From the NCBI RefSeq assembly GCF_000014565.1, contig NC_008268.1, forward strand, positions 1,860,001-1,924,000: 64,000 nt of DNA, read 5' to 3'. Position 1 is the stretch's first letter; each line of letters opens with the position of its first letter. The translations under genes and the position numbers were made by a program. Origin of the DNA: Rhodococcus jostii RHA1. GTDB lineage: Bacteria > Actinomycetota > Actinomycetes > Mycobacteriales > Mycobacteriaceae. The notes beneath the pieces are model-generated. The model was not told the origin of the DNA, did no database searches, and saw only the letters and a program-made list of their open reading frames with translations. Positions 3,538-41,863 of this stretch are shown one piece after another.

Positions 3538-4920
3538 ATGGCAGACATCGAGGTCGACTATTGCGTCGTAGGCGCTGGATTCGCCGGACTGACGGCGGCA
3601 CTGCGTCTGAAACAGGCCGGACAATCGGTCGCGCTCGTGGAGGCGCGTGACCGGATCGGCGGGCGAACGTTCACCGAGGTCCGCGAAGATGGTTCGTGGA
3701 TAGATCGGGGCGGTGCGTGGATCGGGCCGGGACAGGACCGGATCTACGCCATGATGGACGAATTCGGCGTCAAGAGTTACAAGCAGTACACCGACGGCGA
3801 GGCGATGATGGTCGTCGACGGCAAGCAGTACCGGTACAAGGGCACGATTCCCCTGACGATGAGTCCCTGGGCGGCCGCGAATCTCGGGGCCGTGTTCGTC
3901 GAACTCGGCGAGATGTGTAAGACGATCCCGCTCGAGGCGCCGTGGGAGGCGAAGAAGGCAGCGAAGTGGGACTCGATCAGCCTCGCCAAATGGCTCGGCG
4001 ACAACACGCTGTCCACACCCGCCCACGACCTTCTCGAGACCGCCATCGCCGGCTGCTACACCTCCGCGGCGTCCGAAGTGTCGATGCTGTTCGTCCTGTA
4101 CCAGATGGCATCCGGCGGCGGTCCGAGTTTCGTCCTCGGTGTGAAGGACGCCGCCGAGGACGCGCGGCCGGTCGGCGGAATGGGCGCCGTCTATCGTCCG
4201 ATGGCAGTCGAGATCGGCGACGCGCTCCATCTGTCACAACCCGTCCGGGACATCGCACAGGACGGCGACGGCGTGACCGTCCGCTCCGCGGATCTGGCCG
4301 TGCGCGCCCGGAGGGCGATCGTCGCGGTACCCCTCGCGATCGCGAGCCAGATCGTCTACGAACCGCTGCTGCCGATGGATCGGTCCTTCCTGCACCAGCG
4401 AATGCCGAGCGGTGCGGTCATGAAAATCGCCGTCCTCTACGACGAACCCTTCTGGCGCGCCGCCGGACTGTCGGGGCAGTCGGCGGCACCCGACTCCCCC
4501 GCGACGATCACCATCGACGCCAGTACCGACACGGGACGTCCCGGCGTTCTGTGCGTCATCGTCGAGGGACCGATCGCCCGCAAGCTGGGGACGCTGCCGG
4601 AAGCGGAACGGAGGAAGGCCGTGCTCGCGGAGTTGACCGCGAGGTTCGGAAATAAGGCAGCCTCCCCCGTCGACTACATCGAGCAGAACTGGAGCGTCGA
4701 GCGGTACTCCGGCGGCGGCATGCTCAGTCATGCGCCGACGGGAGTGCTCACCCAATTCGGGCACGCCCTCCGCACCCCCTGCGGTCGCATTCACTGGGCC
4801 GGCACGGAGAGTTCGTCCGTGATGTGCGGCTGGGTCGACGGGGCCATCAGGTCCGGGGAGCGCGCCGCCCGCGAAGTCACCGAACACGACGGCGTGCTGT
4901 CACCCACCCGGTCTCAGTAG
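3538..4920 (+). CDS. Flavin-containing monoamine oxidase
   Basis: A 460-residue FAD-dependent amine oxidase. The N-terminus carries the dinucleotide-binding GxGxxG (VVGAGFAGLTAAL), the acidic EARDRIGGRT motif and RGGAWIGPGQ. The C-terminus has HWAGTE followed by DGAIRSGERAA, the second FAD-binding region. Members oxidise primary or polyamines such as tyramine or putrescine to aldehydes with release of ammonia and hydrogen peroxide. I chose the ATG at 3538, preceded by GAGGGG, because the in-frame extension upstream lacks family sequence. Its last 7 bases overlap the end of the convergent SDR gene. The aldehyde product could feed the aldehyde dehydrogenase at 5873. Confidence 0.86.
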   Translation: MADIEVDYCVVGAGFAGLTAALRLKQAGQSVALVEARDRIGGRTFTEVREDGSWIDRGGAWIGPGQDRIYAMMDEFGVKSYKQYTDGEAMMVVDGKQYRYKGTIPLTMSPWAAANLGAVFVELGEMCKTIPLEAPWEAKKAAKWDSISLAKWLGDNTLSTPAHDLLETAIAGCYTSAASEVSMLFVLYQMASGGGPSFVLGVKDAAEDARPVGGMGAVYRPMAVEIGDALHLSQPVRDIAQDGDGVTVRSADLAVRARRAIVAVPLAIASQIVYEPLLPMDRSFLHQRMPSGAVMKIAVLYDEPFWRAAGLSGQSAAPDSPATITIDASTDTGRPGVLCVIVEGPIARKLGTLPEAERRKAVLAELTARFGNKAASPVDYIEQNWSVERYSGGGMLSHAPTGVLTQFGHALRTPCGRIHWAGTESSSVMCGWVDGAIRSGERAAREVTEHDGVLSPTRSQ

Positions 4921-24035: not shown

Positions 24036-24147
24036 ATCTGTACAGCACAAAGATCCGGGGTACTGCATCAGTTATCCAGATGCTGAGGCCGCCGGGTTGG
24101 CATCTGAATAACTGATGCAGTGGCACGGAAAGATCCTGTTGACTGTT
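24036..24147. promoter_or_regulatory. Divergent control region with 22-bp inverted repeat and promoter box copy 3
   Basis: Arms 24062-24083 and 24100-24121 pair at 21 of 22 positions around a 16-base spacer; each contains TGATGCAGT facing outwards. On the minus strand TGATGCAGT (24070-24062), 17 bases and TGTACAGAT (24044-24036) repeat the architecture of copies 1 and 2. On the plus strand TGATGCAGT (24113-24121), 17 bases and TTGACTGTT (24139-24147) form a degenerate copy facing the TMADH-like gene. Confidence 0.75.
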
Positions 24148-24207
24148 GTGGTCGCGCGGACCGACGATTCTGGCACTGCACGAACCGAACAGCGTGAGGA
24201 ACCCACC

Positions 24208-26325
24208 GTGCGTGATCCGAGATACGACATCCTTTTCGAACCGGTCAAGATCGGACCGGTCACCGCCCGCAACCGATTCTTCCAAGTCCCGCACTGCAAC
24301 GGCATGGGTTACCGCGATCCCTCCGGCGAGGCCTACATGCGGCGCGTCAAGGCCGAGGGCGGCTGGGCCGTCGTCTGCACCGAGCAGGTCGAGATCCACC
24401 CGACCTCGGACATCGGCCCGTTCATCGAGCTGCGCCTGTGGGACGACCAGGACCTGCCCGCCCTGACCCGGATCTCCGAGAAGATTCACGAGGGCGGCTC
24501 CCTCGCCGGCATCGAGCTCGCCCACAACGGCCTGAACAGTCCCAACCTGATCAGCCGCGAGACCCCGCTGGGCCCGCAGAATCTGCCCGTCGTCTCCTGG
24601 AACTACGACCCCGTCCAGGCCAGGGCGATGACCAAGTCGGACATCGCCGACCTCCGGCACTGGCACAAGGAGGCGGTGCGCCGGTCGCTGAAGGCCGAAT
24701 ACGACATCGTCTACGTGTACGCCGGGCACGCGATCGGCGGCCTGCACCACTTCCTGTCCCGCCGGTACAACAACCGGACGGACGAGTACGGCGGCAGCCT
24801 GACCAACCGGGTTCGCCTGCTCCGCGAGATCCTCGAGGATTCGCGTGAGGTCGCCGACGGGAAGGCCGCTGTGGCGTGCCGCATCTCGGTCGACGAACTC
24901 CTCGGCGACGAAGGGATCACCCGCAGCGAGATCGAGGACGTGATCGGCCTGCTCGGCGAGACCCCCGATCTGTGGGACTTCGTGCTGGGCAGTTGGGAGG
25001 ACGACTCCGTCACGTCGCGGTTCGGTCCCGAGGCGGAGCAGGAGCCGTATGTCCGCGGGCTGAAGCAGCTCACCACGAAACCCGTCGTCGGTGTCGGCCG
25101 CTTCACCTCGCCCGACACGATGCTGCATCAGGTCAAGAGCGGCATCCTCGACTTCATCGGGGCGGCCCGACCCTCGATCGCCGACCCGTACCTTCCGCGC
25201 AAGATCGAGGAGGGGAACCTCGAGGACATCCGGGAGTGCATCGGCTGCAATATCTGCGTGTCCGGCGACTTCACCATGTCGCCGATCCGCTGCACCCAGA
25301 ACCCGACGATGGGCGAGGAGTTCCGGCGCGGCTGGCACCCGGAGCGGATCAAGGTGCGCTCGACCGATTCGAACGTCCTCGTCGTCGGCGCCGGCCCCGC
25401 CGGACTCGAGGCGGCCCGCGCACTCGGGCAACGCGGCTACCACGTCAGCCTCGCCGAGGCGAGCAGGCAACTCGGCGGCCGCGTGACCCGCGAGTCCAAG
25501 TTGCCCGGCCTGTCCGCGTGGGTCCGTGTGGTCGACTACCGCGAACAGCAACTCCGCAGGCTCCCCGACGTGGACGTGTTCATGGAGAGCGAGATGACCG
25601 CGGACGACGTCATCGAGAACGACTTCCAGCACGTGGTCGTCGCGACGGGCTCGCACTGGCGCCGCGACGGCGTCGGCCGGTGGCACACCCACGCCGTTCC
25701 TGTCGACGAGCACGCCGACGTCCTGACCCCCGACGACGTGATGGCGGGGCTCCGGCCCCGGGGAAACAAGGTCGTCCTCTTCGACGACGACCACTACTAC
25801 CTCGGTGCCGTCGTCGCCGAACTCCTCGCCAAGGAGGGATTCGACGTCACCCTGATCACGCCGGCCGCGCACGTGTCGCAGTGGACGACGAACACCATGG
25901 AGGTGGTCCGCATCCGCAAGCGAATCATCAAGGCCGGTGTGCACGTTCAGGTGAACCGCGCCGTCACCGCGGTCACCCCCCAGGGCGTCCGCACCGTGTG
26001 CGCGTTCACCGGCGACGAGCAGTTCGTCGACGCGGACAGCGTCGTCCTCGTCACCGCGCGGCTCCCGAAGGACGGGTTGTTCCACGAACTGCAGTCGCGC
26101 GAATCCGAATGGGGCGGCGCCGACCTGCGCAGTGTCCGCGGCATCGGCGACGCCTGGGCCCCGTCCACCATCGCGGCGGCGGTCTGGTCCGGGCACCGGT
26201 ACGCCGAGGAACTGGACGAACCACCCGCCGCGGGCCCGGTCGCCTTCCGACGCGAAGTCACCGGACTGTCCATCGAACCCGTCGAGAGATTCTCCGTCCC
26301 CCCGCTCGCCAACGCACAGAACTGA
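24208..26325 (+). CDS. Trimethylamine dehydrogenase-like iron-sulfur flavoprotein
   Basis: A 705-residue enzyme of the TMADH / dimethylamine dehydrogenase / dienoyl-CoA reductase family. Domains: an FMN TIM barrel (about 1-340), a 4Fe-4S site with CIGCNICVS and a later CTQN cysteine (about 345-370), then NAD(P)/ADP-binding domains (VLVVGAGPAGLEAA at about 392). Cys30 in QVPHC matches the cysteine that covalently binds FMN in TMADH. By ungapped alignment to TMADH as I remember it, Tyr60 of the aromatic substrate bowl is Gln60 here, so trimethylamine is an unlikely substrate. GTG start at 24208 with GAGGA upstream. Probable role: oxidative deamination or dealkylation of an amine, coupled to the downstream aldehyde dehydrogenase. 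Confidence 0.87.
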   Translation: MRDPRYDILFEPVKIGPVTARNRFFQVPHCNGMGYRDPSGEAYMRRVKAEGGWAVVCTEQVEIHPTSDIGPFIELRLWDDQDLPALTRISEKIHEGGSLAGIELAHNGLNSPNLISRETPLGPQNLPVVSWNYDPVQARAMTKSDIADLRHWHKEAVRRSLKAEYDIVYVYAGHAIGGLHHFLSRRYNNRTDEYGGSLTNRVRLLREILEDSREVADGKAAVACRISVDELLGDEGITRSEIEDVIGLLGETPDLWDFVLGSWEDDSVTSRFGPEAEQEPYVRGLKQLTTKPVVGVGRFTSPDTMLHQVKSGILDFIGAARPSIADPYLPRKIEEGNLEDIRECIGCNICVSGDFTMSPIRCTQNPTMGEEFRRGWHPERIKVRSTDSNVLVVGAGPAGLEAARALGQRGYHVSLAEASRQLGGRVTRESKLPGLSAWVRVVDYREQQLRRLPDVDVFMESEMTADDVIENDFQHVVVATGSHWRRDGVGRWHTHAVPVDEHADVLTPDDVMAGLRPRGNKVVLFDDDHYYLGAVVAELLAKEGFDVTLITPAAHVSQWTTNTMEVVRIRKRIIKAGVHVQVNRAVTAVTPQGVRTVCAFTGDEQFVDADSVVLVTARLPKDGLFHELQSRESEWGGADLRSVRGIGDAWAPSTIAAAVWSGHRYAEELDEPPAAGPVAFRREVTGLSIEPVERFSVPPLANAQN

Positions 26326-29837: not shown

Positions 29838-31217
29838 ATGCCCAGTCCCGCGCTGTCCACGCGCGCCGAGACCACCTCTCGACGCCGTCTACCCCAGTGG
29901 GCCACATCATTCGGCCCCCAGATCGTCACCGGTCTCGTCGTCGGCGTCATCCTCGGACTCGTCGCCCGCGCCATGCCCGTCGCCGCCGACGGCAACGAGA
30001 ACTGGCTCGTCGGAACCGTCCACACCATCGGCTCCAGTTACGTGAAACTCCTTACCGTCGCGGTGATCCCGCTGGTGTTCACGGCCATCGTCAGTTCGAT
30101 CGCCAACCTGCGCGAGGTGGCCAACGCCGCGCGCCTCGCCGTGCAGACACTGCTGTGGTTCGCGATCACCGCGTTCATCGCCGTCGTCATCGGGATCGTC
30201 ATCGGACTCGTCATCCAGCCGGGATCCCACACGACCGTCACCGGCGCCGGCAAGGAACCGGCCACCACCGGCTCGTGGTGGGCGTTCGTCACCGGCCTCG
30301 TGCCCAGCAACTTCCTCGGCCTGAACGCGAAGACCACCCTCACCGAGGGCGCAGCCAGCACGTCGCTGAGTTTCAACGTGCTGCAGTTGCTCGTCGTCGC
30401 GGCCGCGATCGGCATCGCCGCACTGAAGGTCGGGGCCAAGGCCGAACCGTTCCTGCAGTTCAACGCGTCACTCCTCGCGATCGTGCAGAAGGTGCTGTGG
30501 TGGATCATCCGCCTCGCACCGATCGGGACCGCCGCGCTGATCGCGAACGCCGTCGCCACCTACGGCTGGGACGCCATCGGCTCGCTCGGCTGGTTCACCG
30601 CCGCCGTCTACATCGGCCTGGCCATCGTGTTCCTCGTCGTCTACCCCGTCCTGATCCGCGCGCACGGACTGTCGGTGCGTGCCTTCTACTCCGGTGTGTG
30701 GCCTGCCACGCAGCTCGGCTTCGTGTCCCGTTCGTCGATCGGTACCCTGCCCCTCACCGAGCGGGTCACCGAACGCAATCTCGGTGTCCCCCGCGAGTAC
30801 GCGTCGTTCGCCGTGCCGCTCGGGTCGACCACCAAGATGGACGGCTGCGCTGCCATCTATCCCGCGATCGCCGCGATCTTCGTCGCCGAGTTCTACGGTG
30901 TGCCTTTGTCGTTCACCGACTACCTGCTGATCATCGTCGTCTCCGTGATCGGATCCGCTGCCACCGCGGGCACCACCGGCGCCACCGTCATGCTGACGCT
31001 CACGTTGTCGACGCTGGGGCTGCCCCTCGCCGGTGTGGGCCTGCTGCTCGCGGTCGAACCGATCGTCGACATGGGCCGCACCGCGGTCAACGTCACCGGG
31101 CAGGCTCTCGTCCCGACGATCGTCGCGAAGCGCGAAGGCATCCTCGACGAAGCCCGCTACAACGCCGAACGGACAGGCGACCCGTTCGAGGACGACGACG
31201 CGGTCGCCGCGAAGTAG
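29838..31217 (+). CDS. Dicarboxylate/amino acid:cation symporter (DAACS)
   Basis: A 459-residue GltP/DctA-type symporter with about eight membrane segments and two re-entrant loops. The first re-entrant loop has the serine-rich VSRSSIGTLPLT, followed by PLGSTTKMDGCA, and the second contains GTTGATVMLTL; the substrate-binding Asp-Met-Gly (DMGRTAVNVTG) region near the C-terminus is present. It probably imports a C4-dicarboxylate or acidic amino acid with protons or sodium. A 35-residue basic N-terminus precedes the first membrane segment. Terminated by the hairpin at 31229. Confidence 0.9.
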   Translation: MPSPALSTRAETTSRRRLPQWATSFGPQIVTGLVVGVILGLVARAMPVAADGNENWLVGTVHTIGSSYVKLLTVAVIPLVFTAIVSSIANLREVANAARLAVQTLLWFAITAFIAVVIGIVIGLVIQPGSHTTVTGAGKEPATTGSWWAFVTGLVPSNFLGLNAKTTLTEGAASTSLSFNVLQLLVVAAAIGIAALKVGAKAEPFLQFNASLLAIVQKVLWWIIRLAPIGTAALIANAVATYGWDAIGSLGWFTAAVYIGLAIVFLVVYPVLIRAHGLSVRAFYSGVWPATQLGFVSRSSIGTLPLTERVTERNLGVPREYASFAVPLGSTTKMDGCAAIYPAIAAIFVAEFYGVPLSFTDYLLIIVVSVIGSAATAGTTGATVMLTLTLSTLGLPLAGVGLLLAVEPIVDMGRTAVNVTGQALVPTIVAKREGILDEARYNAERTGDPFEDDDAVAAK

Positions 31218-31228
31218 CGAAACGGTCG

Positions 31229-31260
31229 ACGAGAGCCTTCCCCACGTGGAAGGCTCTCGT
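31229..31260 (+). terminator. Terminator hairpin whose right arm contains the next gene's ribosome-binding site
   Basis: Perfect 13-base-pair stem ACGAGAGCCTTCC / GGAAGGCTCTCGT with a six-base loop. It begins 12 bases after the symporter stop. The right arm contains GGAAGG (31248-31253), eight bases before the ATG of the next gene, so folding would hide that site. Confidence 0.75.
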
Positions 31261-31261
31261 C

Positions 31262-31657
31262 ATGGCCGACCTCGACGCGATCAAACGACGGATCGTCATG
31301 CAATTCCAGCGGCACGTCGCCAACCCGCTCTCCACGCGACTGTCGAGCCAGACGCTCCTCGAGACCACCGGCCGCGTCAGCGGGCAGCCCCGCGTCACGC
31401 CCATCGGCGGCCGGCGCACGGGCACCGAGTTCTGGCTGGTGTCCGAGTTCGGTGAGCGGTCGAACTACATCCGCAACATCCGCGCGAACAATGCCGTTCG
31501 GCTGCGGATCCACGGCAGGTGGCACGCCGGCACCGCGACGCTGCTCCCCGACGACGACGCCCGCGCCCGGCTGGCGCAGCTTCCCCGGATGAACAGCGTC
31601 GCCGTCCGGGCCGTCGGCACCGACCTGCTGACCGTCCGCATCGACCTCGCCGACTGA
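31262..31657 (+). CDS. Deazaflavin-type nitroreductase family protein (Ddn/DUF385)
   Basis: A 131-residue split-barrel protein of the DUF385 family, which in mycobacteria includes the F420-dependent Ddn. Landmarks are the N-terminal helix (KRRIVMQFQRHVANP), TTGRVSGQPRVTPIGGRRTG and EFGERSNYIRNIRANN, followed by VRLRIHGRWHAGTA. The family binds F420 or other flavin-like cofactors and reduces quinones or nitro compounds. The ATG at 31262 begins two bases after the terminator hairpin; the ribosome-binding site lies within that hairpin. Long in-frame sequence upstream is antisense-free but is only a shadow of the symporter gene. Confidence 0.83.
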   Translation: MADLDAIKRRIVMQFQRHVANPLSTRLSSQTLLETTGRVSGQPRVTPIGGRRTGTEFWLVSEFGERSNYIRNIRANNAVRLRIHGRWHAGTATLLPDDDARARLAQLPRMNSVAVRAVGTDLLTVRIDLAD

Positions 31658-32033
31658 GGTCAGCGGGACAAACGCCCACCGAATGGTCACCCGCACCCGC
31701 AATAGCGTCGGCATCTGACCAATGCGTTGCGTCTACGAGCGCGGCCCAGCGTCCTGGCCAGGTGTGATGTTCGCAACTCGGCGTTCGGCTGCACGCTCGT
31801 CGCGGATTTGGTACCGCTCGGCGGCTGCGGATCGAGCAGCTTGCAGTAGGGACTTAGCCTCGGCTAATCTGCGATTTCGCGCGGACCTGGAAAAGGTCCG
31901 CACCTCAGACAACGACGTCTGCCTCACCGGCGTATCGGTTCGGGGCCGGTTCTCTGCCGTGTTCCTCTCGCCGACGCCACCCGTGCGCCCAGCACGGCCC
32001 CATATTCGGCGAGTATCGCGAGGAGACAGTCGG
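31658..32033 (+). promoter_or_regulatory. 376-base gltB upstream region: promoter and leader hairpin
   Basis: Contains no gene. TTGCAG (31841-31846), an 18-base spacer and TAATCT (31865-31870) form a good promoter, giving a leader of about 157 bases. A stem GCGGACCT (31881-31888) / AGGTCCGC (31894-31901) with a five-base loop lies close to the predicted 5' end of the transcript. A ribosome-binding site AGGAGA (32021-32026) precedes the TTG start. Confidence 0.5.
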
Positions 32034-35000
32034 TTGAACACGAGTGCCACCGAGTCCGGCCTGTACGACAGGACGCTCGACAAGAGCAGCTGCGGCGTGG
32101 GCTTCATCACCCGCAAGGACGGCATTCAGACCCATGACGTCCTCATCAGGGGCCATGAGGCCCTGTGTGCTGTTCCTCACCGTGGTGGCATGTCGGCGGA
32201 GGGTGTCGGCGACGGCGCCGGTGTCTGCGTCGACCTGTCGGTGCCGTTCTTCCGCACCCTGACCGGTCAGGACGATCTCGAGGCCGGCCGGTTCGGTGTC
32301 GGCAACTTCTTCCTCCCCACCGACGTGGCATTCCACGGCGACGCGGAGGCCGTCATCGAGCGGGCTCTCGCCGACCAGGGTTTCCACGTGCTGCTCGAGC
32401 GTGACGTGCCCGTCGACGCGACCGTGCTCCGGCCCGCCGCGATCCGGCACCAGCTGCCGATCCGGCAGTGGGTGTTCACCGCGCCCGACGCGTGCGCCGA
32501 CGAGACCGAGTTCGACCGTCGCATCCACGACGCCCTGCTCGCGATCGAGGCCGTCGCGTACACCCAGCCCGATCTGGCCGGGCTGTACCCGCTGTCGCTG
32601 AGCGCCCGCACCCAGGTGCTCAAGGGCCGCCTCAATTCGAACGAGGTGATGCCCTACTTCCAGGACCTCGTCGACCCGGCGCACGCCATCCACACCCTGT
32701 ACTTCCACACCCGGTTCTCGACGAACACCGACCCGCATCCGACGATGGCGCAGCCGTTCCGTCTGATGGCGCACAACGGCGAGCTCAACACGGACAAGAA
32801 GAATCGCCTGTCCGAGACGGCGCTCGCTCGTGCCCGGAACCGGGAGATCGTCCGCCCGCACGGCCAGTCGGACAGTTGCCGCCTCGACCAGACGCTGCAG
32901 AGCCGGGTGGTGGAGGACGGTCTCGACCTGGTGACCGCGGTGGTGTCGATGATGCCGCCGGCGTGGGAGAACGACTCCACCCTGTCGCCCGAGGTCCGGG
33001 CGATGCTCGAGTACTTCTCGCTGTACGAGGAGAAGAACGACGGCCCGGCCGCGCTGATCTTCGGCGACGGCACCGTCGTCGGCGCGCGGCTCGACCGGCT
33101 CGGGCTGCGTCCGCTGCGCTCGGTGGAGACGGACGAGTACCTGTGCGTCACGTCCGAGGCCGGGCAGATCGACTTCGACCCCGAGACCGTTGTGCACCGC
33201 GGACGCATCGAGGCCGGCGGCATGCTGTACTTCGACCACCGCGAGGGCCGCTCGTACTCCACCGACGAGGCACTCGAGCTGCTCGCCTCCCGGAACGACT
33301 ACCCGACGCTCGTCGCGGAGGCCCGCCGGACCATCGAGGCGCTGCCCGAGGTCGAGGCCGAGCCGGGACCGCTGCGGTACAACGGCGACCTCGAGCGCAC
33401 CCAGCGCTACGTCGCGTACTCGCACAACCAGGAAAGCTTCAAATTCATGATGGACCCGATGCTCGCGTCGGGTCAGGAGAAGATCTCCGCGATGGGCTAC
33501 GGCAACGCCATCAACGCGCTCTCCGATCAGGAAGGCGGGGTGGCCAAGTACTTCTCGCAGCGTTTCGCCCAGGTCACGAACCCTTCGCTCGACAGCATCC
33601 GTGAGGCCGACGGCATGACGCTGCGTGTCGCGCTCGGCGCCAAGCCGAACAGCGGGGCGCAGTCTGCGCCGCAGATCGTGGTGCCGTCGCCGATCCTCAC
33701 CCACATGGACATGCTGCGGATCCGCAAGCAGTCCGAGACCCCGGTGCAGCGTTTCCCGATGCTGTACACCCCCGTCCACGGTGACTCCGCCGCCAACGCG
33801 GCTGCGCTCGAGGCCGCGGTCGACGGGCTCTGCGACGAGGTGGAGGCGTTCGCCCGCGAGCAGGGCGGCATCGCGATCGTCACCGACCGTCACGTGGCCA
33901 CCGACCGCGCCGCGCTGCCGATGATCGTGGCGATCTCCGCTGTCAACCAGCGGCTGATCGAGGAGGGCCTGCGCCTGCGGGTGTCCGTCGTCGCCGAGAG
34001 CGGTCAGATCTCGTCGTCGCACCACGTGGCCGCGGCCCTCGGTTTCGGCGCCGCCGCGATCTACCCGCTCGCCGTCCGTCTGCGCGCCGAGGAGAAGTTC
34101 GCCGACGAGGCGGATGTGGCGTTCAAGCGGTTCGCGAAGGCCGCGGAGAAGTCGCTGATGAAGACGATGGGCCGGGTCGGCCTGTGCACCGCCGAAAGCT
34201 ACATCGGCGGCGAATTCTTCGAACCCAACTACCTCGACACCGACGACCGGGTGCTGCGCCGCTACTTCGCGAACGTGAAGACGCCGGTGGGTGGTGTCGG
34301 GTTCGCCGTCATCGCGCAGGCCGTCGCCGACTGGCACCAGCGCGCCCTGACGGTCACCGGGGAGAAGGACGTCCCGCTGCTCGGCCTGTTCAAGGAGCGC
34401 GCGGAGGGCGCGGGTCACTCGTACGGCACGGCGGCCGTGCGCGGCTTCGTCGACCTCACCGAGGAGCCCATCTCGTTCGACACGGCGGGCACGCAGGACC
34501 ACACGGAATCGCTGCGACTGCTGCCGCTGAACCGGCTCGAGGACGCGTTCGGTCTCGACGACGACGCCTACCGCAACGCCGGCTTCCAGAAGCTGACACC
34601 CGAGGCGATCGACTGCTTCGAGATCACCCCCGGCTACCGCGCCTTCGCGCGGACGATGGCCGAGGAGCGCACCCGTCGTCCGGCAGCGCTGCGCGACGTG
34701 CTGGATCTGCCTGCCGACGTCACGTTCCTCACCACGGCAGCCGAGTTCCGCAAGCAGATGGGCCGCTTCTCCCGCAAGGGCAACAACAGCTTCGCGGTGC
34801 GCGGGCTCGAATCCGAGGCCATCGGCGAGGACCGGTTCCGGCTGCGGCTCACCGGCCCCCACGCGGGCGAGTCCCGTGTGCTCGCGGCGCTCGGCGAATC
34901 GCTGGTCATGCGGTTCGGCGACGACCTCCTCGACCACAGCGTGGACGGCGACGCCCTTGTGGTGAGCACGTCCGGTGAGGCGCTGCGATGTCTGTCGCTG

Positions 35001-37526
35001 CTGCGCACCGCTCCGGCGAGCGTGCCGATCGGTCAGGTGCAGAAGGCCAGCGAGATCACCCCGTTCCTCACGTCCGGCGCCATGAGCCACGGTGCGTTGA
35101 ACTCCAACGCGCACGAGGCCGTCGCGCACGGCACCAACATGGTCGGCGGTATGTCGAACAGCGGTGAGGGCGGCGAGCACATCTCGCGCTACGGCACCAT
35201 CCGCGGTTCCCGGATCAAGCAGTTCGCGTCCGGCCGTTTCGGTGTGTGGGCGGGCTACCTGGCCGACCCGATGCTCGAGGAACTCGAGATCAAGATCGCG
35301 CAGGGCGCCAAGCCCGGCGAGGGCGGGCAGCTGCCCGCACCCAAGGTGACCGTCGAGATCGCGGCAGCGCGTGGCGGCACTCCCGGCGTCGAACTCGTCT
35401 CTCCCCCACCGCATCACGACACGTACTCCATCGAGGACCTCGCGCAGCTCATCCACGACTGCAAGGCGGCGCGGGTCCGCGTCATCGTCAAGCTCGTGTC
35501 CTCGGAGGGCATCGGCACCATCGCGGTGGGTGTCGCGAAGGCCGGCGCCGACGTCATCAACGTCGCGGGCAACACCGGCGGTACCGGTGCCGCCGCGGTG
35601 ACCAGCCTCAAGTACGCCGGACGTTCGGCGGAGATCGGTGTCGCCGAGGTCCATCAGGCGTTGTGCGCCAACGGGTTGCGGCAGAAGGTGCTGCTCCGGT
35701 GCTCCGGGGCGCACCAGACGGCGAGCGACGTCGTGAAGTCGGCGCTGCTCGGCGCCGACAGCTTCGAGTTCGGCACCACCGCGCTGATGATGCTCAAGTG
35801 CGTCATGGCCAAGAACTGCAACATCAAGTGCCCCGCCGGTCTGACCACCAACCCCGAACTGTTCGACGGTGATCCGCGGGCGATGGCGCAGTACCTGCTG
35901 AACATCGCGCACGAGACCCGCGAGGTGCTGGCCGAGCTGGGGATGTCCTCGCTGCGCGAGGCCCGGGGCCGCTCCGATCTGTTGCAGCTCCTCGACCACC
36001 CGTCGAGCGTCGGCCAGCTCGACCTGCGTGCGATGCTCGCCGTGGTCGAGGAAGTGACCATCGGCGATCCGGTGTACCTGGAGAAGGACTACACCCTCGA
36101 CGACGGCTGGCTCGTGCAGCTGCGCGCCGCGCTGGTCGAGCAGGGCGAGGCCACGGTCGAGCTCGGCGACGGGGTGCACCTGAGCAACCGCAACAAGAGC
36201 GTCGGCGCCCAGCTGGCGGTCGACATCGAGCGGATGCTGAACCACGAGCTCACCGATGTCGAACTGCCCGCCGTGCTCCGCGACGAGCGCGGCCGCGGCT
36301 ACCTGCGCGACGGCAGCGTCCGGATCGCCACGTCCGGGTCCGCGGGCCTGTCGTACGGTGCGTTCTGCAACGACGGCATGACCCTCGTCCACACCGGCAC
36401 CGCCAACGACGGCGTCGGCAAGGGCGCCAACGGCGGCAGCATCGTCGTGCGCTCGCCCGGTGGCGGCTCCGACCGGCACGGCGGCAATGTGCTGATCGGC
36501 AACTTCGCACTGTTCGGCGCCACCGGTGGACGCACGTTCGTGGAGGGTCAGGCGGGCGACCGCTTCGCCGTACGCAATTCGGGTGCCACCGCGGTGGTCG
36601 AGGGTGTCGGCGACTTCGCCTGCGAGTACATGACCAACGGCGCCGTCCTCAACCTCGGCAGCTTCGGCAAGGGCGTCGGCAACGGGATGAGCGGTGGCTT
36701 CGTCTACCAGTACGACCCCGAGGGCAAGCTGCCCGGCAAGGCCAGCGCGGACTCGATCCTGCTCGGCTCCATCACCGGCGACGACGAGCACGCGGCGCTG
36801 CACCGTCAGGCCGTGCACGTGCTGCTCGGGTGGCACCTCGAGGCCACCGGCTCCGCCAAGGCGGCCTGGTTGCTCGAGAACTGGGAGACCGAACAGCACC
36901 ACTTCGTGTACGGCATGCCGCGCGCACTGCTGCAGTACCAGGACAGCGACGAGATCCTGAAGGCCAAGCCCCGCAAGGAGCTCGCCGACGAACTCGCCGC
37001 CGCACTGGTCGCGCACCAGGTGCGCAAGTTCAAGCTGGACTACCGGGACGGTCACGCGGTGCTGGACGGCGCCGTGCCCGGCTACGGCGAGGCCGACACC
37101 GAAGCCATGTTCGCGCTGCTGAACAACTACACCGTGCTGAACGCGGCGCAGGAGATGGCGCTGTCCAAGCTGCCGGGTGTCGCGGATCCGTCCGATCCGG
37201 CGGTCGACAAGGCCGTCCGCAACCTGCTGCTCACCGAGGACTTCTTCCTCATGCAGCGGTTGCAGCGGTACGCGCGGGAAGCGTTGAAGGACTACAGCGA
37301 CGAGGACCTGGCCGTGATGGTGGCGGCCAAGCGTCTCGCCGACTACAAGGATGCGCTGCGCCGCCGCAACGTCCGGTCCATCGACGCCCCCGGCACGTAC
37401 GGCTGGATCCTGCACCAGGACGCCAAGAACGTCGACAAGATCGGCCGGCTGCCCGGTTTCGAGGAGTTGTTCGCGCAGCACGCTCTCCCCGATCTCATCC
37501 CCACGAGAGACGTGGTCCCCTCATGA
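32034..37526 (+). CDS. gltB: Glutamate synthase large subunit, unusual long form
   Basis: 1830 residues versus about 1500 for ordinary GltB. TTG start with AGGAGA upstream; a 19-residue propeptide precedes the Ntn nucleophile Cys20 (SSCGVGF). Domains: glutaminase (about 20-430, HNGELN and HGQSDSCRLDQ), central domain (about 440-800, FAQVTNPSLDSIRE), a roughly 100-residue insertion (about 905-1000) absent from standard GltB, FMN/2-oxoglutarate barrel (about 1010-1400, MSHGALNSNAHE, GEGGQLPAPKVT), GXGXG domain (about 1430-1560) and a C-terminal extension of about 195 residues. The iron-sulfur cysteines are Cys1256, Cys1262 and Cys1266, one residue tighter than the usual Cx5Cx4C. No gltD is adjacent; the next genes are a diflavin reductase (ATGA overlap) and a flavodoxin. 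Ammonia transfer from glutamine to 2-oxoglutarate is expected. Confidence 0.92.
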   Translation: MNTSATESGLYDRTLDKSSCGVGFITRKDGIQTHDVLIRGHEALCAVPHRGGMSAEGVGDGAGVCVDLSVPFFRTLTGQDDLEAGRFGVGNFFLPTDVAFHGDAEAVIERALADQGFHVLLERDVPVDATVLRPAAIRHQLPIRQWVFTAPDACADETEFDRRIHDALLAIEAVAYTQPDLAGLYPLSLSARTQVLKGRLNSNEVMPYFQDLVDPAHAIHTLYFHTRFSTNTDPHPTMAQPFRLMAHNGELNTDKKNRLSETALARARNREIVRPHGQSDSCRLDQTLQSRVVEDGLDLVTAVVSMMPPAWENDSTLSPEVRAMLEYFSLYEEKNDGPAALIFGDGTVVGARLDRLGLRPLRSVETDEYLCVTSEAGQIDFDPETVVHRGRIEAGGMLYFDHREGRSYSTDEALELLASRNDYPTLVAEARRTIEALPEVEAEPGPLRYNGDLERTQRYVAYSHNQESFKFMMDPMLASGQEKISAMGYGNAINALSDQEGGVAKYFSQRFAQVTNPSLDSIREADGMTLRVALGAKPNSGAQSAPQIVVPSPILTHMDMLRIRKQSETPVQRFPMLYTPVHGDSAANAAALEAAVDGLCDEVEAFAREQGGIAIVTDRHVATDRAALPMIVAISAVNQRLIEEGLRLRVSVVAESGQISSSHHVAAALGFGAAAIYPLAVRLRAEEKFADEADVAFKRFAKAAEKSLMKTMGRVGLCTAESYIGGEFFEPNYLDTDDRVLRRYFANVKTPVGGVGFAVIAQAVADWHQRALTVTGEKDVPLLGLFKERAEGAGHSYGTAAVRGFVDLTEEPISFDTAGTQDHTESLRLLPLNRLEDAFGLDDDAYRNAGFQKLTPEAIDCFEITPGYRAFARTMAEERTRRPAALRDVLDLPADVTFLTTAAEFRKQMGRFSRKGNNSFAVRGLESEAIGEDRFRLRLTGPHAGESRVLAALGESLVMRFGDDLLDHSVDGDALVVSTSGEALRCLSLLRTAPASVPIGQVQKASEITPFLTSGAMSHGALNSNAHEAVAHGTNMVGGMSNSGEGGEHISRYGTIRGSRIKQFASGRFGVWAGYLADPMLEELEIKIAQGAKPGEGGQLPAPKVTVEIAAARGGTPGVELVSPPPHHDTYSIEDLAQLIHDCKAARVRVIVKLVSSEGIGTIAVGVAKAGADVINVAGNTGGTGAAAVTSLKYAGRSAEIGVAEVHQALCANGLRQKVLLRCSGAHQTASDVVKSALLGADSFEFGTTALMMLKCVMAKNCNIKCPAGLTTNPELFDGDPRAMAQYLLNIAHETREVLAELGMSSLREARGRSDLLQLLDHPSSVGQLDLRAMLAVVEEVTIGDPVYLEKDYTLDDGWLVQLRAALVEQGEATVELGDGVHLSNRNKSVGAQLAVDIERMLNHELTDVELPAVLRDERGRGYLRDGSVRIATSGSAGLSYGAFCNDGMTLVHTGTANDGVGKGANGGSIVVRSPGGGSDRHGGNVLIGNFALFGATGGRTFVEGQAGDRFAVRNSGATAVVEGVGDFACEYMTNGAVLNLGSFGKGVGNGMSGGFVYQYDPEGKLPGKASADSILLGSITGDDEHAALHRQAVHVLLGWHLEATGSAKAAWLLENWETEQHHFVYGMPRALLQYQDSDEILKAKPRKELADELAAALVAHQVRKFKLDYRDGHAVLDGAVPGYGEADTEAMFALLNNYTVLNAAQEMALSKLPGVADPSDPAVDKAVRNLLLTEDFFLMQRLQRYAREALKDYSDEDLAVMVAAKRLADYKDALRRRNVRSIDAPGTYGWILHQDAKNVDKIGRLPGFEELFAQHALPDLIPTRDVVPS

Positions 37527-39292
37527 AGATGCCCTACATCCCCCAGGACGCCCCGTTCAGCGAGGACCAGCGCGTGTGGCTCACCGGCTTCCTCGCCGGC
37601 ATGAGCTCGCGCCTCGTCGTCGGCGGCTCCGACGCGCCCGCCGCGGCGGCCGGTGGGCAGTTGCCCGCCATGCACGTGCTGTACGGCAGCCAGACCGGGA
37701 ACGCGGAGGGTGTCGCGGAAGACGCTGCGGCCGCGGCCCGTTCGCAGGGCTTCGCGCCGGTCGTGAGCGCGCTCGACGACGTCGACACGGACGCCCTCGC
37801 CGCCATGCAACGCGTCCTGGTCGTCACCTCCACCTACGGTGAGGGTGAGATGCCCGACAACGCCGAACTGTTCTGGCAGGCGCTGGCCGCGGAGACCGCG
37901 CCGCGACTGGAGAACACCGACTTCGCCGTCCTCGCGCTCGGCGACACCGGCTACGACGGGTACTGCCAGGCCGGCAAGATGATCGACACCAGGCTCGAGC
38001 AGCTCGGTGCCCGCCGCGTCACTCCGCGCGTCGACTGCGACGTCGACTACGAGGACACTGCCGCCGCGTGGGTCGCCGACACCCTCCCCCTGTTCGCGGC
38101 CGTCGAGGGCATTCGCGGCGAGTCCCCCGTCGCCGATGTCGCCGAGCCCGAGACGAAGCCGGCCCGGAAGCGGTCGCAGTGGAACCGCAAGAACCCTTAC
38201 GCGTCCACGCTCTCCGTGAACCGGCGGCTGTCGAGCGAGACGTCCGCGAAGGAGATCCGGCACTACGAGTTCGCGCTCGCCGACAGCGGTCTCGAGTACG
38301 AGGCCGGTGACGCGCTCGGTGTGATGCCGATCAACGATCCCGCGCTCGTCGACGCTCTGGTGTCCCGGCTGGGCATCCCGGCGGACGCCGCCGTCACCGG
38401 GAAGGAGCGGCCGTTCAGCGACCTCCTGCTGCACGGGTACGAGATCTCCACGCCGAGCCACGAATTCATCGACGAGATCGAGAAGCGGGCGGGCGACGAA
38501 GAACTGAGCCACGTGCTGCGGCACGGCGACAAGGAAGCCCTCGACGCCTGGTTGTGGGGCAAGGACGTGCTCGACCTGCTGCTCCTCGAACCGTCGGTGA
38601 CCCTGACCGCGGACGAGTTCGTCGGGTTGCTGAAGCCGTTGCAGCACAGGGCGTATTCCATCTCGTCCAGCCCGCTCGCCAACCCCGGCAGCGTGCACCT
38701 GACCGTCGCCAGCGTCCGCCACAGCTCGGCCGGACGCGACCGCGGCGGCGTGTGCTCCACGTTCCTCGCCGATCGGATCGCCGAGGGCGGCAGCGGTGGA
38801 ATCTTCGTGTCGAAGAACAAGTCGTTCCGCGTCCCCGCGAACGACGACGCACCGATGATCATGGTCGGCCCCGGCACCGGCATCGCGCCGTTCCGCGCGT
38901 TCCTGCAGGAACGGCAGGCGCGGGGCGCGTCGGGACGCAACTGGCTGTTCTTCGGCGACCAGCACCGCGCGTCGGACTACATCTACGAGGACGAGATCGG
39001 CGCGATGAGCGACAGCGGTCTCCTCACCCGACTCGACCTCGCCTTCTCCCGCGACCAGGCGGAGAAGATCTACGTGCAGAACCGGATGGTCGAGAACGGC
39101 GCGGAGTTGTTCGCCTGGCTCGAGGACGGCGGCCACTTCTACGTCTGTGGCGACGCCACCCGGATGGCGAAGGACGTCGACCGGGCCCTGCACGAGGTCA
39201 TCGCCACCCATGGCACCCTTTCCACCGAGCAGGCCGCCGACTACGTGACCAAGCTCAAGAAGGAAAAGCGCTACCTGCGCGACGTGTACTGA
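37523..39292 (+). CDS. NADPH diflavin reductase, CysJ-like
   Basis: 589 residues. After an N-terminal segment (PFSEDQRVWLTGFLAG) comes a flavodoxin domain (about 49-190, LYGSQTGNAEGVAED; TSTYGEGEMPDNA), then a CysJ/P450-reductase-type FAD domain (RAYSISSSP, GGVCSTFL) and an NADPH domain (VGPGTGIAPFRAFLQER, FYVCGDATRMAKDV) ending in RDVY as in CysJ. It would carry electrons from NADPH through FAD to FMN. The start overlaps the gltB stop (ATGA) so the two are translationally coupled. There is no sulfite reductase hemoprotein here. I infer that it replaces GltD as electron donor to the glutamate synthase, directly or via the flavodoxin. Confidence 0.88.
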   Translation: MKMPYIPQDAPFSEDQRVWLTGFLAGMSSRLVVGGSDAPAAAAGGQLPAMHVLYGSQTGNAEGVAEDAAAAARSQGFAPVVSALDDVDTDALAAMQRVLVVTSTYGEGEMPDNAELFWQALAAETAPRLENTDFAVLALGDTGYDGYCQAGKMIDTRLEQLGARRVTPRVDCDVDYEDTAAAWVADTLPLFAAVEGIRGESPVADVAEPETKPARKRSQWNRKNPYASTLSVNRRLSSETSAKEIRHYEFALADSGLEYEAGDALGVMPINDPALVDALVSRLGIPADAAVTGKERPFSDLLLHGYEISTPSHEFIDEIEKRAGDEELSHVLRHGDKEALDAWLWGKDVLDLLLLEPSVTLTADEFVGLLKPLQHRAYSISSSPLANPGSVHLTVASVRHSSAGRDRGGVCSTFLADRIAEGGSGGIFVSKNKSFRVPANDDAPMIMVGPGTGIAPFRAFLQERQARGASGRNWLFFGDQHRASDYIYEDEIGAMSDSGLLTRLDLAFSRDQAEKIYVQNRMVENGAELFAWLEDGGHFYVCGDATRMAKDVDRALHEVIATHGTLSTEQAADYVTKLKKEKRYLRDVY

Positions 39293-39326
39293 CCACGTCG
39301 GCAGCAACTCACGAGGAGCAAGAACA

Positions 39327-39776
39327 ATGGCAGTGGTGATTCTGTACGGCAGCGAGGGCGGGACCTCCGAACTGGTGGCCGACAACATCGCCGACGTGCT
39401 CGGCGACTACGGCGACACGTCCCTGTACGACATGATGGAGTTCGACGCGGGCGATCTCGACCCCGAGAATTTCCACGTCATCGTGTGCTCCACCTACGGT
39501 GAGGGCGAGCTGCCCACCGGCGCGGAACCCTTCTTCGAGGGTCTCGAGGAAGACGAACCCGATCTCACCGGTTTGCAGTTCGCGCTGTTCGGCCTCGGCG
39601 ACAAGGTGTACGAGGAGACCTACAACCGCGGCGGCGAGATCATCGCGGAGAAGCTCGTCTCCCTCGGCGCGGTCCAGGTGGGCGAACACGGCAGGCACGA
39701 CGGGTCCAGCTCGATCCGCCCGAAGGATCAGGCCGAGGAGTGGGCCAAGAACATCGGCGAGGAATTCCTCGGATAG
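39327..39776 (+). CDS. Flavodoxin (MioC-like)
   Basis: A 149-residue flavodoxin domain: FMN phosphate loop LYGSEGGTSELVA at the N-terminus, the STYGEGELPTGAEPF loop and the FGLGDKVYEETYN loop. It is 34 bases after the diflavin reductase with AGGAG upstream, so is in the same operon. Its domain resembles the flavodoxin part of the reductase next door, so it may have arisen by duplication and may shuttle electrons to the glutamate synthase. It ends five bases before the convergent PaaX-like gene. Confidence 0.86.
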   Translation: MAVVILYGSEGGTSELVADNIADVLGDYGDTSLYDMMEFDAGDLDPENFHVIVCSTYGEGELPTGAEPFFEGLEEDEPDLTGLQFALFGLGDKVYEETYNRGGEIIAEKLVSLGAVQVGEHGRHDGSSSIRPKDQAEEWAKNIGEEFLG

Positions 39777-39780
39777 CACC

Positions 39781-40644
39781 TCACACCGGGAGCCGCGACT
39801 GCACGCTCCGCACCCAGTCGCGGCTCCCGTCGAGGTAGCGGTCCCGTGCCGACGCGAACAGGCGGACGCTGTCGGCGCCGGGCCAGTCCTCGGGCAGCAT
39901 GCCGGCGGGCAGGCCCGGGTCGATGTAGGGGATGATGCGCCATTCGTCGAGCAGCGGGACGAACCGGACGAACGCTTCGCGCGGCGACACCTCCTCTGCG
40001 GCAGACAGAGCGACCCGGTGGCGGTCCAGGAAGTCGCGGTGCCGCGCGGCGATGCCGTCCAGATCCCACCACCGCGTCGCCGCGTCCCCCATCGAATCGG
40101 GGACGAACACCGATGTGGACACGAAGGTGGTCACGTACTCTGACAGGCCCAGCGCGTCGACGATGTCCTGGACCTCGCGGGCGAGGTACTCGGGGGCGAT
40201 CCACAGGCCGGGCGACACGGTTCCGCAGCCGATCCAGCCGAGTCGCCTGCGCAACTGGTGCCGCACCGCCCGTTGCGATTCGGGGATGGTGAACGAGATC
40301 AGCCGCCAGGGATCGGTTTCCGACATCTGACGGAAGCCGAAGATCCGAGGATCGCCGCGTCTGAACATCGCCTCGGCCTGCTCGGTCACCTCGTACCCGC
40401 TCCGCCCGTCGCGGGTCAGCGGCCGCAGCACCCCCTTCTTCTTCAGGCGGGCCACTGCGATGCGCGTCGATTCGGAGGGGATACCGACGGCCTGCATCAA
40501 TTCCACGAAGTCGGCGATCGCCACCCACCCGCCGAGGTCGCGCACGTACGCGCCGAGGACGGTGCGGATCAGGGACGTCGCGCTGCCGGGCCGCGAATCG
40601 AAGTCGTCGAGGACGGCGCTCGCCGGTTCAGTCGGTGAGTTCAT
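39781..40644 (-). CDS. PaaX-family transcriptional regulator
   Basis: A 287-residue PaaX-type repressor. The N-terminal winged helix (LIRTVLGAYVRDLGGWVAIADFV, here in two parts, and ESTRIAVARLKKKGVLRPL) is followed by the central domain (WRLISFTIPESQRAVRHQLRRRLGWIG, read as WRLISFTIPESQR) and a C-terminal domain. PaaX represses phenylacetate genes; here it is the last gene of the kynAU operon, its ATG lying 17 bases inside kynU. It probably senses a kynurenine, anthranilate or a CoA ester derived from it and controls the operon. No operator was recognised. Confidence 0.85.
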   Translation of the reverse strand: MNSPTEPASAVLDDFDSRPGSATSLIRTVLGAYVRDLGGWVAIADFVELMQAVGIPSESTRIAVARLKKKGVLRPLTRDGRSGYEVTEQAEAMFRRGDPRIFGFRQMSETDPWRLISFTIPESQRAVRHQLRRRLGWIGCGTVSPGLWIAPEYLAREVQDIVDALGLSEYVTTFVSTSVFVPDSMGDAATRWWDLDGIAARHRDFLDRHRVALSAAEEVSPREAFVRFVPLLDEWRIIPYIDPGLPAGMLPEDWPGADSVRLFASARDRYLDGSRDWVRSVQSRLPV

Positions 40645-41863
40645 CACGGATCGCGAGTATCCCGGCGAACACCTCACCGAAGCTGGTACTCAGCGGGCTC
40701 AGGCCGAGCCGCAGCCCCTGCGGGGCCCGGAAGTCGGGGATGACGCCCTTCGTCCACAGTCGCTCGACGACGGTCTGGAACCGCGGGTGGTCGATGATGA
40801 CGTGACCACCCCGTTCGGCGGAGTCCTCCGGCGACCCGATCTCCACGCCTAAGGGAATCAGCACCTCGCGCACGAGGTCGAGTGCGTACTCGGTGAGCGC
40901 GATCGACTTGGCGCGCACGGCGTCCATGCCGACCTCGTCGAGGAGTGCGAGGGTGTCCTGCAGCGCGATCATGCCGAGGACCGACGGCGTTCCGCTGATC
41001 ACCCGCCGGATGCCGGGCGCCGGTCGGTAGCCCTGCTCCATCGCGAACGGGTTGTCGCGGCCCATCCAGCCCCAGATCGGCTGTACGAAGTCCTGCTGAT
41101 GGTCGGCGCGAACGTAGGCGAACGCCGGTGAGCCCGGACCGCCGTTCAGATACTTGTACGTGCACCCGACCGCCAGATCGACACCCCACGTGTCGAGTTC
41201 GAGGGGAACCGAGCCGACGGAGTGACACAGGTCGAGCAGCAGGAGCGCACCGGCGTCGTGTGTCACGCGCGCGGCGCCGGCGGCGTCGACCAGGTAGCCC
41301 GAGCGGTAGGCGACGTGACTGAGCACGACGAGCGCGGTGCGTTCGGAGACCACGGACGTCAGGTCGTCGACGGTGACGCCGCCCCGGGTATCGGATTCGA
41401 TCCACCGGAGCGTGAGCCCGAGTTCTCCGGCCACGGCCTCGAGCACGTAGCGGTCCGTCGGAAAGTTGTCGCGGTCCACGACGATCTCGGTGCGGTCCGG
41501 CCGCAACGCGAGCGCACCTCGCGCGAGTTTGTACAGCAGAACCGTCGTCGAGTCGCCGATGGTGGTCTGCCCGGCGGCCGCGCCGAGCGACACCCTCGCG
41601 AGGGTGTCGCCGATCGTGATCGGCAGGTCGTACCACTCCTCGTCCCACCCGCGGATGAGCCGGCCGCCCCACGACTGGGTGACGAAGGCGTTGATCCGCT
41701 CGGCACTCGCCTTGGTGGGCCGGCCGAGCGAGTTGCCGTCGAGGTAGGCGGGCACCGAGGGGTCGTCGGCGCCGATGAACAGGTCGCGGTACGGGCGCAG
41801 CGGGTCCGCGGCGTCGAGTTCGGCGGCGCGGGCGGCCGGCACATCGGTCGAGGTGGTCATCAT
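40628..41863 (-). CDS. kynU: Kynureninase
   Basis: A 411-residue PLP enzyme of typical kynureninase length: converts kynurenine to anthranilate and alanine in tryptophan catabolism. The N-terminal PAYLDGNSLGR, the Asp-His-type LLLLDLCHSVGSVPLEL segment and the PLP lysine in GCTYKYLNGGPGSPAF are diagnostic. The first of two adjacent ATGs overlaps the kynA stop by four bases; the 3' end overlaps the regulator gene by 17. Confidence 0.95.
   Translation of the reverse strand: MMTTSTDVPAARAAELDAADPLRPYRDLFIGADDPSVPAYLDGNSLGRPTKASAERINAFVTQSWGGRLIRGWDEEWYDLPITIGDTLARVSLGAAAGQTTIGDSTTVLLYKLARGALALRPDRTEIVVDRDNFPTDRYVLEAVAGELGLTLRWIESDTRGGVTVDDLTSVVSERTALVVLSHVAYRSGYLVDAAGAARVTHDAGALLLLDLCHSVGSVPLELDTWGVDLAVGCTYKYLNGGPGSPAFAYVRADHQQDFVQPIWGWMGRDNPFAMEQGYRPAPGIRRVISGTPSVLGMIALQDTLALLDEVGMDAVRAKSIALTEYALDLVREVLIPLGVEIGSPEDSAERGGHVIIDHPRFQTVVERLWTKGVIPDFRAPQGLRLGLSPLSTSFGEVFAGILAIRDELTD

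Follow-up and report, generated by a model that had tools for sequence, protein, structure and literature searches.

A candidate NADPH-dependent glutamate synthase with a diflavin reductase in place of GltD, and iron-operator-like sites upstream of its genes, in Rhodococcus jostii RHA1 and other bacteria

How might a glutamate synthase obtain electrons from NADPH when the gene next to that of its large subunit is not gltD? This question is raised by a locus in the 9.7 Mb genome of Rhodococcus jostii RHA1, within a stretch of 64,000 nucleotides of contig NC_008268.1 (positions 1,860,001 to 1,924,000; the whole stretch is hereafter the window), where the gene for a protein resembling the glutamate synthase large subunit (gltB3) is followed by the gene for a CysJ-like NADPH diflavin reductase (cysJ3) and then by that for a short flavodoxin. 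PMC8097209 describes a canonical NADPH-dependent glutamate synthase (GltS) with FMN and a [3Fe-4S] cluster on GltB and with FAD and two [4Fe-4S] clusters on GltD, a ferredoxin-dependent enzyme (Fd-GltS) that draws its electrons from ferredoxin, and a third known form in which the two bacterial subunits are fused in eukaryotes. An earlier note on the window had proposed another route, from NADPH through the FAD/FMN reductase, perhaps via flavodoxin, to the FMN barrel of GltB. The comparisons given below suggest that the locus probably encodes a third design of NADPH-glutamate synthase, an isozyme for iron limitation in which CysJ3 would replace GltD as the donor and which would be controlled by IdeR or, in rhizobia, by RirA; that CysJ3 acts as the donor is, taken alone, very likely.

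The constant association of GltB3 with CysJ3

The donor role of CysJ3 is argued for, above all, by its association with GltB3. When one genome per species was scanned, relatives of the C-terminal extension of GltB3 (see below) were found to be encoded at 315 sites, and the locus counts given here use the best 80 of the 315. In all 80 loci, a cysJ3 gene lies directly 3' of gltB3, in the same order and with 0–97 bases between the matches; the identities over the best segments are 67–99% for GltB3 and 61–98% for CysJ3. Whether gltB3 always adjoins the same reductase in actinobacterial genomes, a question that the earlier note had raised, is answered in the affirmative for a sample of 401 genomes of the same family, some of which are the same records as in the 80-locus set: the reductase is immediately downstream in all of the 72 genomes that carry GltB3 (the window's own, 22, and 49), with the matches at most 257 bases apart and with CysJ3 matched in two pieces in four of the 49. 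In a class-wide sample of 394 genomes, five have GltB3, including that of the window. GltB3 is also found in nine plasmid records (64.6–77.9% identity); the same nine head the plasmid search with CysJ3 (56.6–70.3%), and the two are adjacent in 9/9. In that search, 20 of 227 records were listed, with the best coverage first, and the other 11 of the 20 reach 46.3–50.6%; one of these 11 carries the annotation of a bifunctional nitrate reductase/flavoprotein. Full-length relatives of CysJ3 with at least 54% identity occur only beside GltB3 among the matches listed for the genome, the family sample, and the plasmids. Such constant adjacency rules out that the two genes are chance neighbours. Moreover, gltD adjoins gltB3 in none of the 80 loci (in L080, a gltB-gltD pair is present separately, further along), and gltB3 thus lies outside the alpha-beta NADPH-GltS class, in which GltD is encoded with GltB.

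The pairing also shows in the sequence distances of the two proteins. For this comparison, 75 sequences were used, namely those of the window and of 74 loci, once those with genes split or cut by contig ends (L015, L016, L017, L041, L043, and L047) had been left out. The pairwise distances of GltB3 and CysJ3 correlate with r = 0.919, the best of 1000 permutations giving 0.09, and the two trees have 53 of 72 splits in common. The GltB3 of the window is about 78% identical to the Agrobacterium and Shinella copies versus 71–73% to the Mycolicibacterium copies, and copies of gltB3-cysJ3 are found on plasmids, one of which is typed as conjugative. Since rhizobial copies are closer than Mycolicibacterium ones, and since there are plasmid copies, these sequences suggest that the pair travels between phyla as a unit.

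What sort of reductase is CysJ3? Its single chain contains, above the Pfam cut-offs, Flavodoxin_1 (PF00258), FAD_binding_1 (PF00667), and NAD_binding_1 (PF00175), with FMN, FAD, and NADPH motifs that are largely conserved over the 75 sequences. It is like CysJ in this order of FMN, FAD, and NADPH domains, in a similar N-terminal segment, and in a C-terminal DVY, and it could therefore be taken for an ordinary sulfite reductase flavoprotein that is beside gltB by happenstance. Its best curated match is indeed the CysJ model TIGR01931, it passes the looser model for sulfite reductase subunit alpha, NF004859 (482.5 versus a cut-off of 432), and in public records it bears the name cysJ or sulfite reductase subunit alpha (and GltB3 that of a glutamate synthase-related protein). 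However, its TIGR01931 score of 616.7 is under the equivalog cut-off of 668.15, its NF008197 score is 518.9 versus 838, and its partner is GltB3, wherever examined, rather than CysI. The earlier note had seen no siroheme hemoprotein nearby, which agrees with the genome's matches to PF01077: these are four ORFs, all far from the window, and none is beside cysJ3. The one scanned with the CysI model, an ORF of 595 aa, scores 164.7 versus 756.55 and matches best to ferredoxin-type models, always under their cut-offs; the other three are of 846–946 aa. A CysJ score below its cut-off, together with no CysI found beside cysJ3, disfavours the sulfite reductase explanation to the point where it deserves hardly any credence.

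Only one other full-length module of the CysJ type was found in the genome. It is 46% identical to CysJ3 and ends a 1378-aa protein (L095:7149-11285, minus strand, contig C1), the N-terminal part of which resembles the NasA nitrate reductase by eye. A diflavin module on a nitrate reductase-like protein gives a precedent for such modules feeding enzymes of nitrogen assimilation, and in the same genome; it differs from CysJ3 in being fused to a molybdopterin enzyme, whereas CysJ3 is the separate partner of a glutamate synthase.

Three observations on other reductases may be added. Of the searched genomes that carry GltB3, many also have ORFs of about 1320–1460 aa with a 40–49% match. CysJ3-like genes without the FMN domain (residues ~190–588, 49–61% identity) are found at G002:C1:4441322-4443014, G009:C286:1735-3481, G035:C1:1530234-1531388, and G597:C1:1637333-1638493, and also in G464, G585, G750, and G754; in two genomes, a flavodoxin-like match lies beside such a gene, and the two could be a split diflavin reductase. 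Finally, a second diflavin reductase, 48% identical to CysJ3 and with its own 13/19 IdeR-like box, is encoded about 3 kb upstream of gltB3 at L050:440-2056 (minus strand), and L051, L066, and L074 have similar matches.

The flavodoxin is a different matter. Its 149-aa product matches Flavodoxin_1 above the Pfam cut-off and shares 36% identity with the CysJ3 FMN domain. The gene is present in only 6 of the 80 loci, all of them in one clade of Rhodococcus, and in 10 of the 22 family-sample genomes. On this ground, the flavodoxin is rejected as an obligatory carrier; judging from its distribution, it is an accessory to the system rather than a core part, and in Rhodococcus, it might serve as an accessory carrier under the same low-iron condition. 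The route in the earlier note is strongly supported by linkage for the step from NADPH through the reductase to GltB (80/80 loci, 72/72 genomes, 9/9 plasmids, r = 0.92) and is not supported for the flavodoxin as a general step.

GltB3 among the glutamate synthases

The genome of R. jostii RHA1 has two further full-length gltB genes (1542 and 1544 aa); the next gene after each is a gltD, and both gltD exceed the TIGR01317 cut-off. The presence of these two standard pairs, which the earlier note had left to be looked for, implies that GltB3 is an extra isozyme. More generally, a GltB3 match was found in 20 of 61 searched genomes, and all 20 have a canonical gltB match.

GltB3 proteins form a distinct subfamily. 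Members are about 61–99% identical to the window protein, versus 32–36% for canonical GltB in the N-terminal half and 44–50% in the FMN/GXGXG part, and the score of GltB3 on the GltB model NF008730 passes only narrowly (1049.2 versus a cut-off of 1047). As in GltB, the glutaminase cysteine nucleophile and the FMN/synthase domain are present; GATase_2, Glu_syn_central, Glu_synthase, and GXGXG are all above the Pfam cut-offs, and Cys20, RFSTNT, HNGELNT, GEGGE, GAKPGEGGQLP, and Cys1256/1262/1266 are invariant across the 75 sequences. The cluster motif is C-x5-C-x3-C in 118/118 aligned members, where the two canonical GltB of the genome have C-x5-C-x4-C; the loop is therefore one residue shorter than the canonical one. 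Because the three cysteines are conserved, an iron-sulfur cluster is likely to be retained.

Two further regions distinguish GltB3. The first is an insert of 180–200 residues where the chains of solved GltB structures hold 30–50. Its structural model (mean pLDDT 66.6) is confident only in the second half, which forms a small alpha/beta domain, and a comparison of this model with the PDB gave no match under an E of 0.05. The second is the C-terminal extension of about 190 aa, absent from canonical GltB, which is modelled as all-helical (mean pLDDT 82.4) and gave no match to the PDB under an E of 0.5. As modelled, the folds of the two regions give no clue to function. The C-terminal region is matched by 287 proteins; among the 120 listed are proteins from Rhodococcus, Nocardia, the Mycobacterium group, rhizobia, Brucella, Roseibium, Ancylobacter, Methylobacillus, and Lampropedia, with none longer than 1851 aa that would indicate a fusion protein. 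The closest named relatives of the extension are in Rhodococcus opacus, R. wratislaviensis, R. koreensis, R. tibetensis, and R. jostii. In all six C-terminal GltB3 matches of one genus (G564, G645, G654, G667, G677, and G712), the frame is interrupted once, by TGA or TAG, which may simply mark where a shorter extension naturally ends.

These differences could be taken to mean that GltB3 is not a glutamate synthase at all but a glutaminase-coupled reductive aminase acting on a different 2-oxo acid, for example, the precursor of a siderophore or of a stress metabolite. The low identity of the N-terminal half, the two extra regions, and the altered cluster loop speak for such an enzyme. However, the glutaminase and FMN/synthase motifs are canonical and invariant, and there is no constant biosynthetic neighbour at the loci compared, which makes a change of substrate very improbable.

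A glutamate synthase that differs in its donor is better compared with the known forms. With GltB/GltD, GltB3 has in common its four domains, its catalytic motifs, and, as predicted from these, the reaction described in PMC8097209, in which glutamine, 2-oxoglutarate, and NADPH would yield two glutamates; it differs in having a diflavin reductase for GltD, the shorter cluster loop, the insert, the extension, and the iron-operator-like sites. It would resemble Fd-GltS in being a chain that works without GltD and with a separate electron carrier, as predicted here, but it differs from Fd-GltS in its dedicated, adjacent NADPH diflavin reductase, present wherever examined, and in the two extra regions; the solved Fd-GltS has a low identity to GltB3 in the N-terminal half. 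Flavodoxin can often substitute for ferredoxin.

Iron-operator-like sites and neighbouring genes

An important question is why such a variant should exist, and iron, which did not figure in the earlier note, suggests a reason. The DtxR/IdeR box is given in PMC1382209 as the 19 bp consensus TTAGGTTAG(G/C)CTAACCTAA, and in a near-identical form in PMC9505556. The count of such boxes covers the window and 31 of the 34 actinobacterial loci (L015–L017 are omitted, being on contigs without the gene start). A box of at least 13/19 is found upstream of gltB3 in 21 of these 32 regions, and in 17 of 20 in the mycobacterial/nocardial group. The same score is reached by 0.4% of 8652 random segments of 410 bp and by 1.3% of 3200 base-shuffled upstreams; for the other ORFs of these loci, it is reached by two upstreams out of 217. 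A further 13 genomes (taken from 20 upstream stretches, after L127, which has no anchor, and six repeats of earlier loci were dropped) give a score of at least 13 in eight cases and 12 in two, with failure in three, and the gltB3 copy on a Tsukamurella plasmid has a box of 14/19. In the Hyphomicrobiales, a second regulator comes into play: the operator motif of RirA (IRO), TGA-N9-TCA according to PMC6386902, is present upstream of gltB3 in 29 of 36 loci versus 9.2% of 6732 background segments. By these matches, the upstream sites are putative operators of the IdeR/DtxR and of the RirA type. Two other kinds of box were rejected in the non-actinobacterial loci: the best Fur boxes score 13/19 (L023, L056, and L080), which is reached by 2.6% of random segments, and the best ICE boxes match 10 of 14 specified bases (L035, L049, and L082), reached by 3.4% of segments.

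The genes around the operon also point to iron. In 14 of the 80 loci, cysJ3 is followed by a HemS/ChuX-type gene, of which one further locus has only a fragment. In 12 loci, mycobacterial, nocardial, and related, it overlaps cysJ3 by 11 bp (one of these genes was scanned with Pfam, and the others are 58–72% identical to it); a Labrenzia locus and a Hyphomicrobium locus have a HemS gene, according to Pfam, in the same place, and the third gene on the Tsukamurella plasmid has a HemS domain. In Ketogulonicigenium, cysJ3 is followed by a hypothetical gene, an AraC-type regulator, a TonB-dependent siderophore receptor (third), and a siderophore ABC transporter gene. Five Methylobacillus loci have in common a TonB-receptor-type gene upstream of the operon, along with ORFs that resemble FecI/FecR in a reading of their translations.

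Might CysJ3 serve another acceptor, such as HemS-type haem degradation or the reduction of a flavodoxin or a siderophore, with GltB3 being fed by ferredoxin, flavodoxin, or GltD? The HemS/ChuX-type genes that overlap cysJ3, the flavodoxin gene that follows it in six loci, and the canonical GltD encoded in the same genome would all fit such a division of labour. Yet HemS and flavodoxin are missing from most of the 80 loci, and GltB3 never is; the closest full-length relatives of CysJ3 among the matches listed are, as noted above, beside GltB3; and CysJ3 carries a flavodoxin-like FMN domain of its own. An acceptor other than GltB3 is thus improbable.

Several observations weigh against the proposal of a low-iron isozyme fed by CysJ3. 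The window's own iron box is modest, at 13/19; seven of the 32 actinobacterial regions, which belong to one Rhodococcus group, score under 12/19 and have no iron box, nor is there one in 3/3 further genomes of that group's genus. One canonical gltB of the genome is itself preceded, at a distance of about 250 bp, by an equal 13/19 match (the other gltB scores 11), and the canonical gltB upstreams in ten other genomes score 13 in four cases, 12 in three, and 10 in three, one of the last on a short, doubtful stretch. A lone 13/19 box therefore proves little, since canonical gltB upstreams score alike, and the iron argument rests on the recurrence of the box across genera and on the motif of the second regulator in rhizobia. 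There, many of the loci are close kin, the IRO motif overlaps a TTGACT that is possibly just a promoter element, and the Shinella loci retain TTGACTC without the TCA half. In the non-actinobacterial loci, no Fur match of at least 14/19 was found, Enterobacter and Pantoea scoring 10. Since its three cysteines are kept, GltB3 would still require some iron for a cluster, and the shortened loop would be compatible with more than one type of cluster. It is also conceivable that GltB3 is served by the GltD of the canonical operons. In the trees, 8 of 59 well-supported GltB3 splits clash with CysJ3 splits that are themselves well supported; at a fine scale, the tight pairing is thus not fully congruent. 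Lastly, gltB2 of Staphylococcus aureus is a predicted target of an iron-sparing sRNA, for which PMC9410917 reports no significant alteration of mRNA stability.

One way to accommodate these points is to suppose that GltB3-CysJ3 is an NADPH-glutamate synthase with a new donor but that it is a redundant isozyme, or one that responds to nitrogen or to oxidants, the iron motifs being incidental in many lineages. This would account for one Rhodococcus group and the gamma- and beta-proteobacterial loci having no recognisable iron operator, for the box-like sequence before a canonical gltB, for the promoter-like sequence within the rhizobial motif, and for the neighbours of gltB3 that differ by lineage (for example, an aromatic amino acid lyase of the HutH type in one rhizobial group). 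We consider it unlikely, if to be taken seriously, because the motifs of two unrelated iron regulators are found in two phyla and far over background, because the actinobacterial result was repeated on the 13 further genomes, and because several lineages have haem or siderophore genes next to the operon.

The proposed mechanism and the layout of the locus

Returning to the proposal of a low-iron isozyme, the mechanism would be as follows. The N-terminal Cys20 site of GltB3 would hydrolyse glutamine, and the ammonia would be channelled to the FMN barrel, where 2-iminoglutarate would be reduced to glutamate as in ordinary GltB. The electrons would pass from NADPH to the FAD and then to the FMN of CysJ3, the flavodoxin-like FMN domain of which would dock near the iron-sulfur cluster of GltB3, probably with the aid of the insert and the C-terminal extension. 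GltD, with its two [4Fe-4S] clusters, would then be dispensable, and if the cluster of GltB3 is [3Fe-4S], the enzyme would contain 3 Fe versus 11 Fe per canonical alpha-beta unit. Because GltD would not be needed, most of the enzyme's iron would be saved, about a quarter being retained. When iron is replete, the operon would be under repression by IdeR in actinobacteria or by RirA in rhizobia.

Glutamate synthase is a central and iron-costly enzyme of ammonia assimilation, which some bacteria reduce when sparing iron. In PMC3751524, transcripts for the canonical GltBD of Caulobacter fall under iron limitation, and PMC9938188 mentions both the lowering of glutamate synthase in the iron-sparing response of Bacillus subtilis and a decrease in GltB in a metal-stressed strain showing an iron-starvation response. 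GltB3-CysJ3 is a candidate replacement that would keep nitrogen assimilation going while the iron-rich enzyme is reduced, and it comes with predictions as to donor, cofactor, and regulation. It is reminiscent of the exchange of flavodoxin for ferredoxin (PMC9938188), where a flavin protein takes the place of an iron-sulfur carrier at low iron, except that here the exchange would involve an entire subunit of an enzyme of central metabolism. On balance, the data favour the idea that a dedicated low-iron glutamate synthase is kept in at least two phyla, with GltD swapped for a flavin-only diflavin reductase and with control by the host's iron regulator (IdeR or RirA), encoded by a two-gene cassette that has moved between phyla. 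If so, a class of electron donor would be added beside the GltD and ferredoxin forms of PMC8097209, iron sparing would be seen to be achieved through the exchange of a whole subunit, and the routine annotation of a sulfite reductase subunit alpha next to a glutamate synthase-related protein would be corrected. No description of the gltB3-cysJ3 pair was found in the open-licence PMC literature, and the names in the source annotation are generic.

The features of the locus are collected in Table 1. The ORF coordinates and the Pfam domains bear out the three-gene arrangement given in the earlier note (a GltB-like protein, a diflavin reductase overlapping it by ATGA, and a flavodoxin).

Table 1. 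Features of the gltB3-cysJ3 locus (positions within the window)
Feature	Position	Strand	Details
GltB3 (glutamate synthase large subunit-like)	32034..37526	+	1830 aa; TTG start behind a GAGGAG-type ribosome site
CysJ3 (CysJ-like NADPH diflavin reductase)	37523..39292	+	589 aa; ATG overlaps the gltB3 TGA stop (ATGA)
Flavodoxin, short	39327..39776	+	149 aa; starts 34 bases past the cysJ3 stop
IdeR/DtxR-like iron box (putative) TTAGCCTCGGCTAATCTGC	31854..31872	+	13/19 versus consensus
Promoter-like TTGCAG - 18 bases - TAATCT	31841..31870	+	overlaps the iron box; by-eye reading
GltB3-specific insert	34431..34964	+	residues ~800-977, between the central and FMN domains
Iron-sulfur motif C1256-x5-C1262-x3-C1266 of GltB3	35799..35831	+	
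C-terminal helical extension of GltB3	36951..37523	+	residues ~1640-1830

That the window has no gltD, as also claimed in that note, is consistent with tblastn searches using the genome's two GltD, which gave only partial matches of 33–55% identity over 33–119 aa. The best of these (25321-25668) lies inside a 736-aa ORF at 24115-26325, which resembles trimethylamine dehydrogenase by eye and the nucleotide-binding part of which gives the largest GltD-like match of the window; the remaining candidates, short matches near 3565, were likewise rejected as GltD.

The long 5' leader (31200-32400) has one Rfam match, which is under its gathering score. A long leader with a GACAA-N-GTCTGC-like element is found 5' of gltB3 in the Rhodococcus loci L052, L061, L064, L067, L068, L085, and L118–L120 and in the window (31850-32033), loci without an iron box included. 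Directly downstream of the flavodoxin gene and convergent with it, a PaaX-type regulator is encoded at 39781-40677 (minus strand), beyond which are ORFs resembling, by eye, kynureninase and tryptophan 2,3-dioxygenase.

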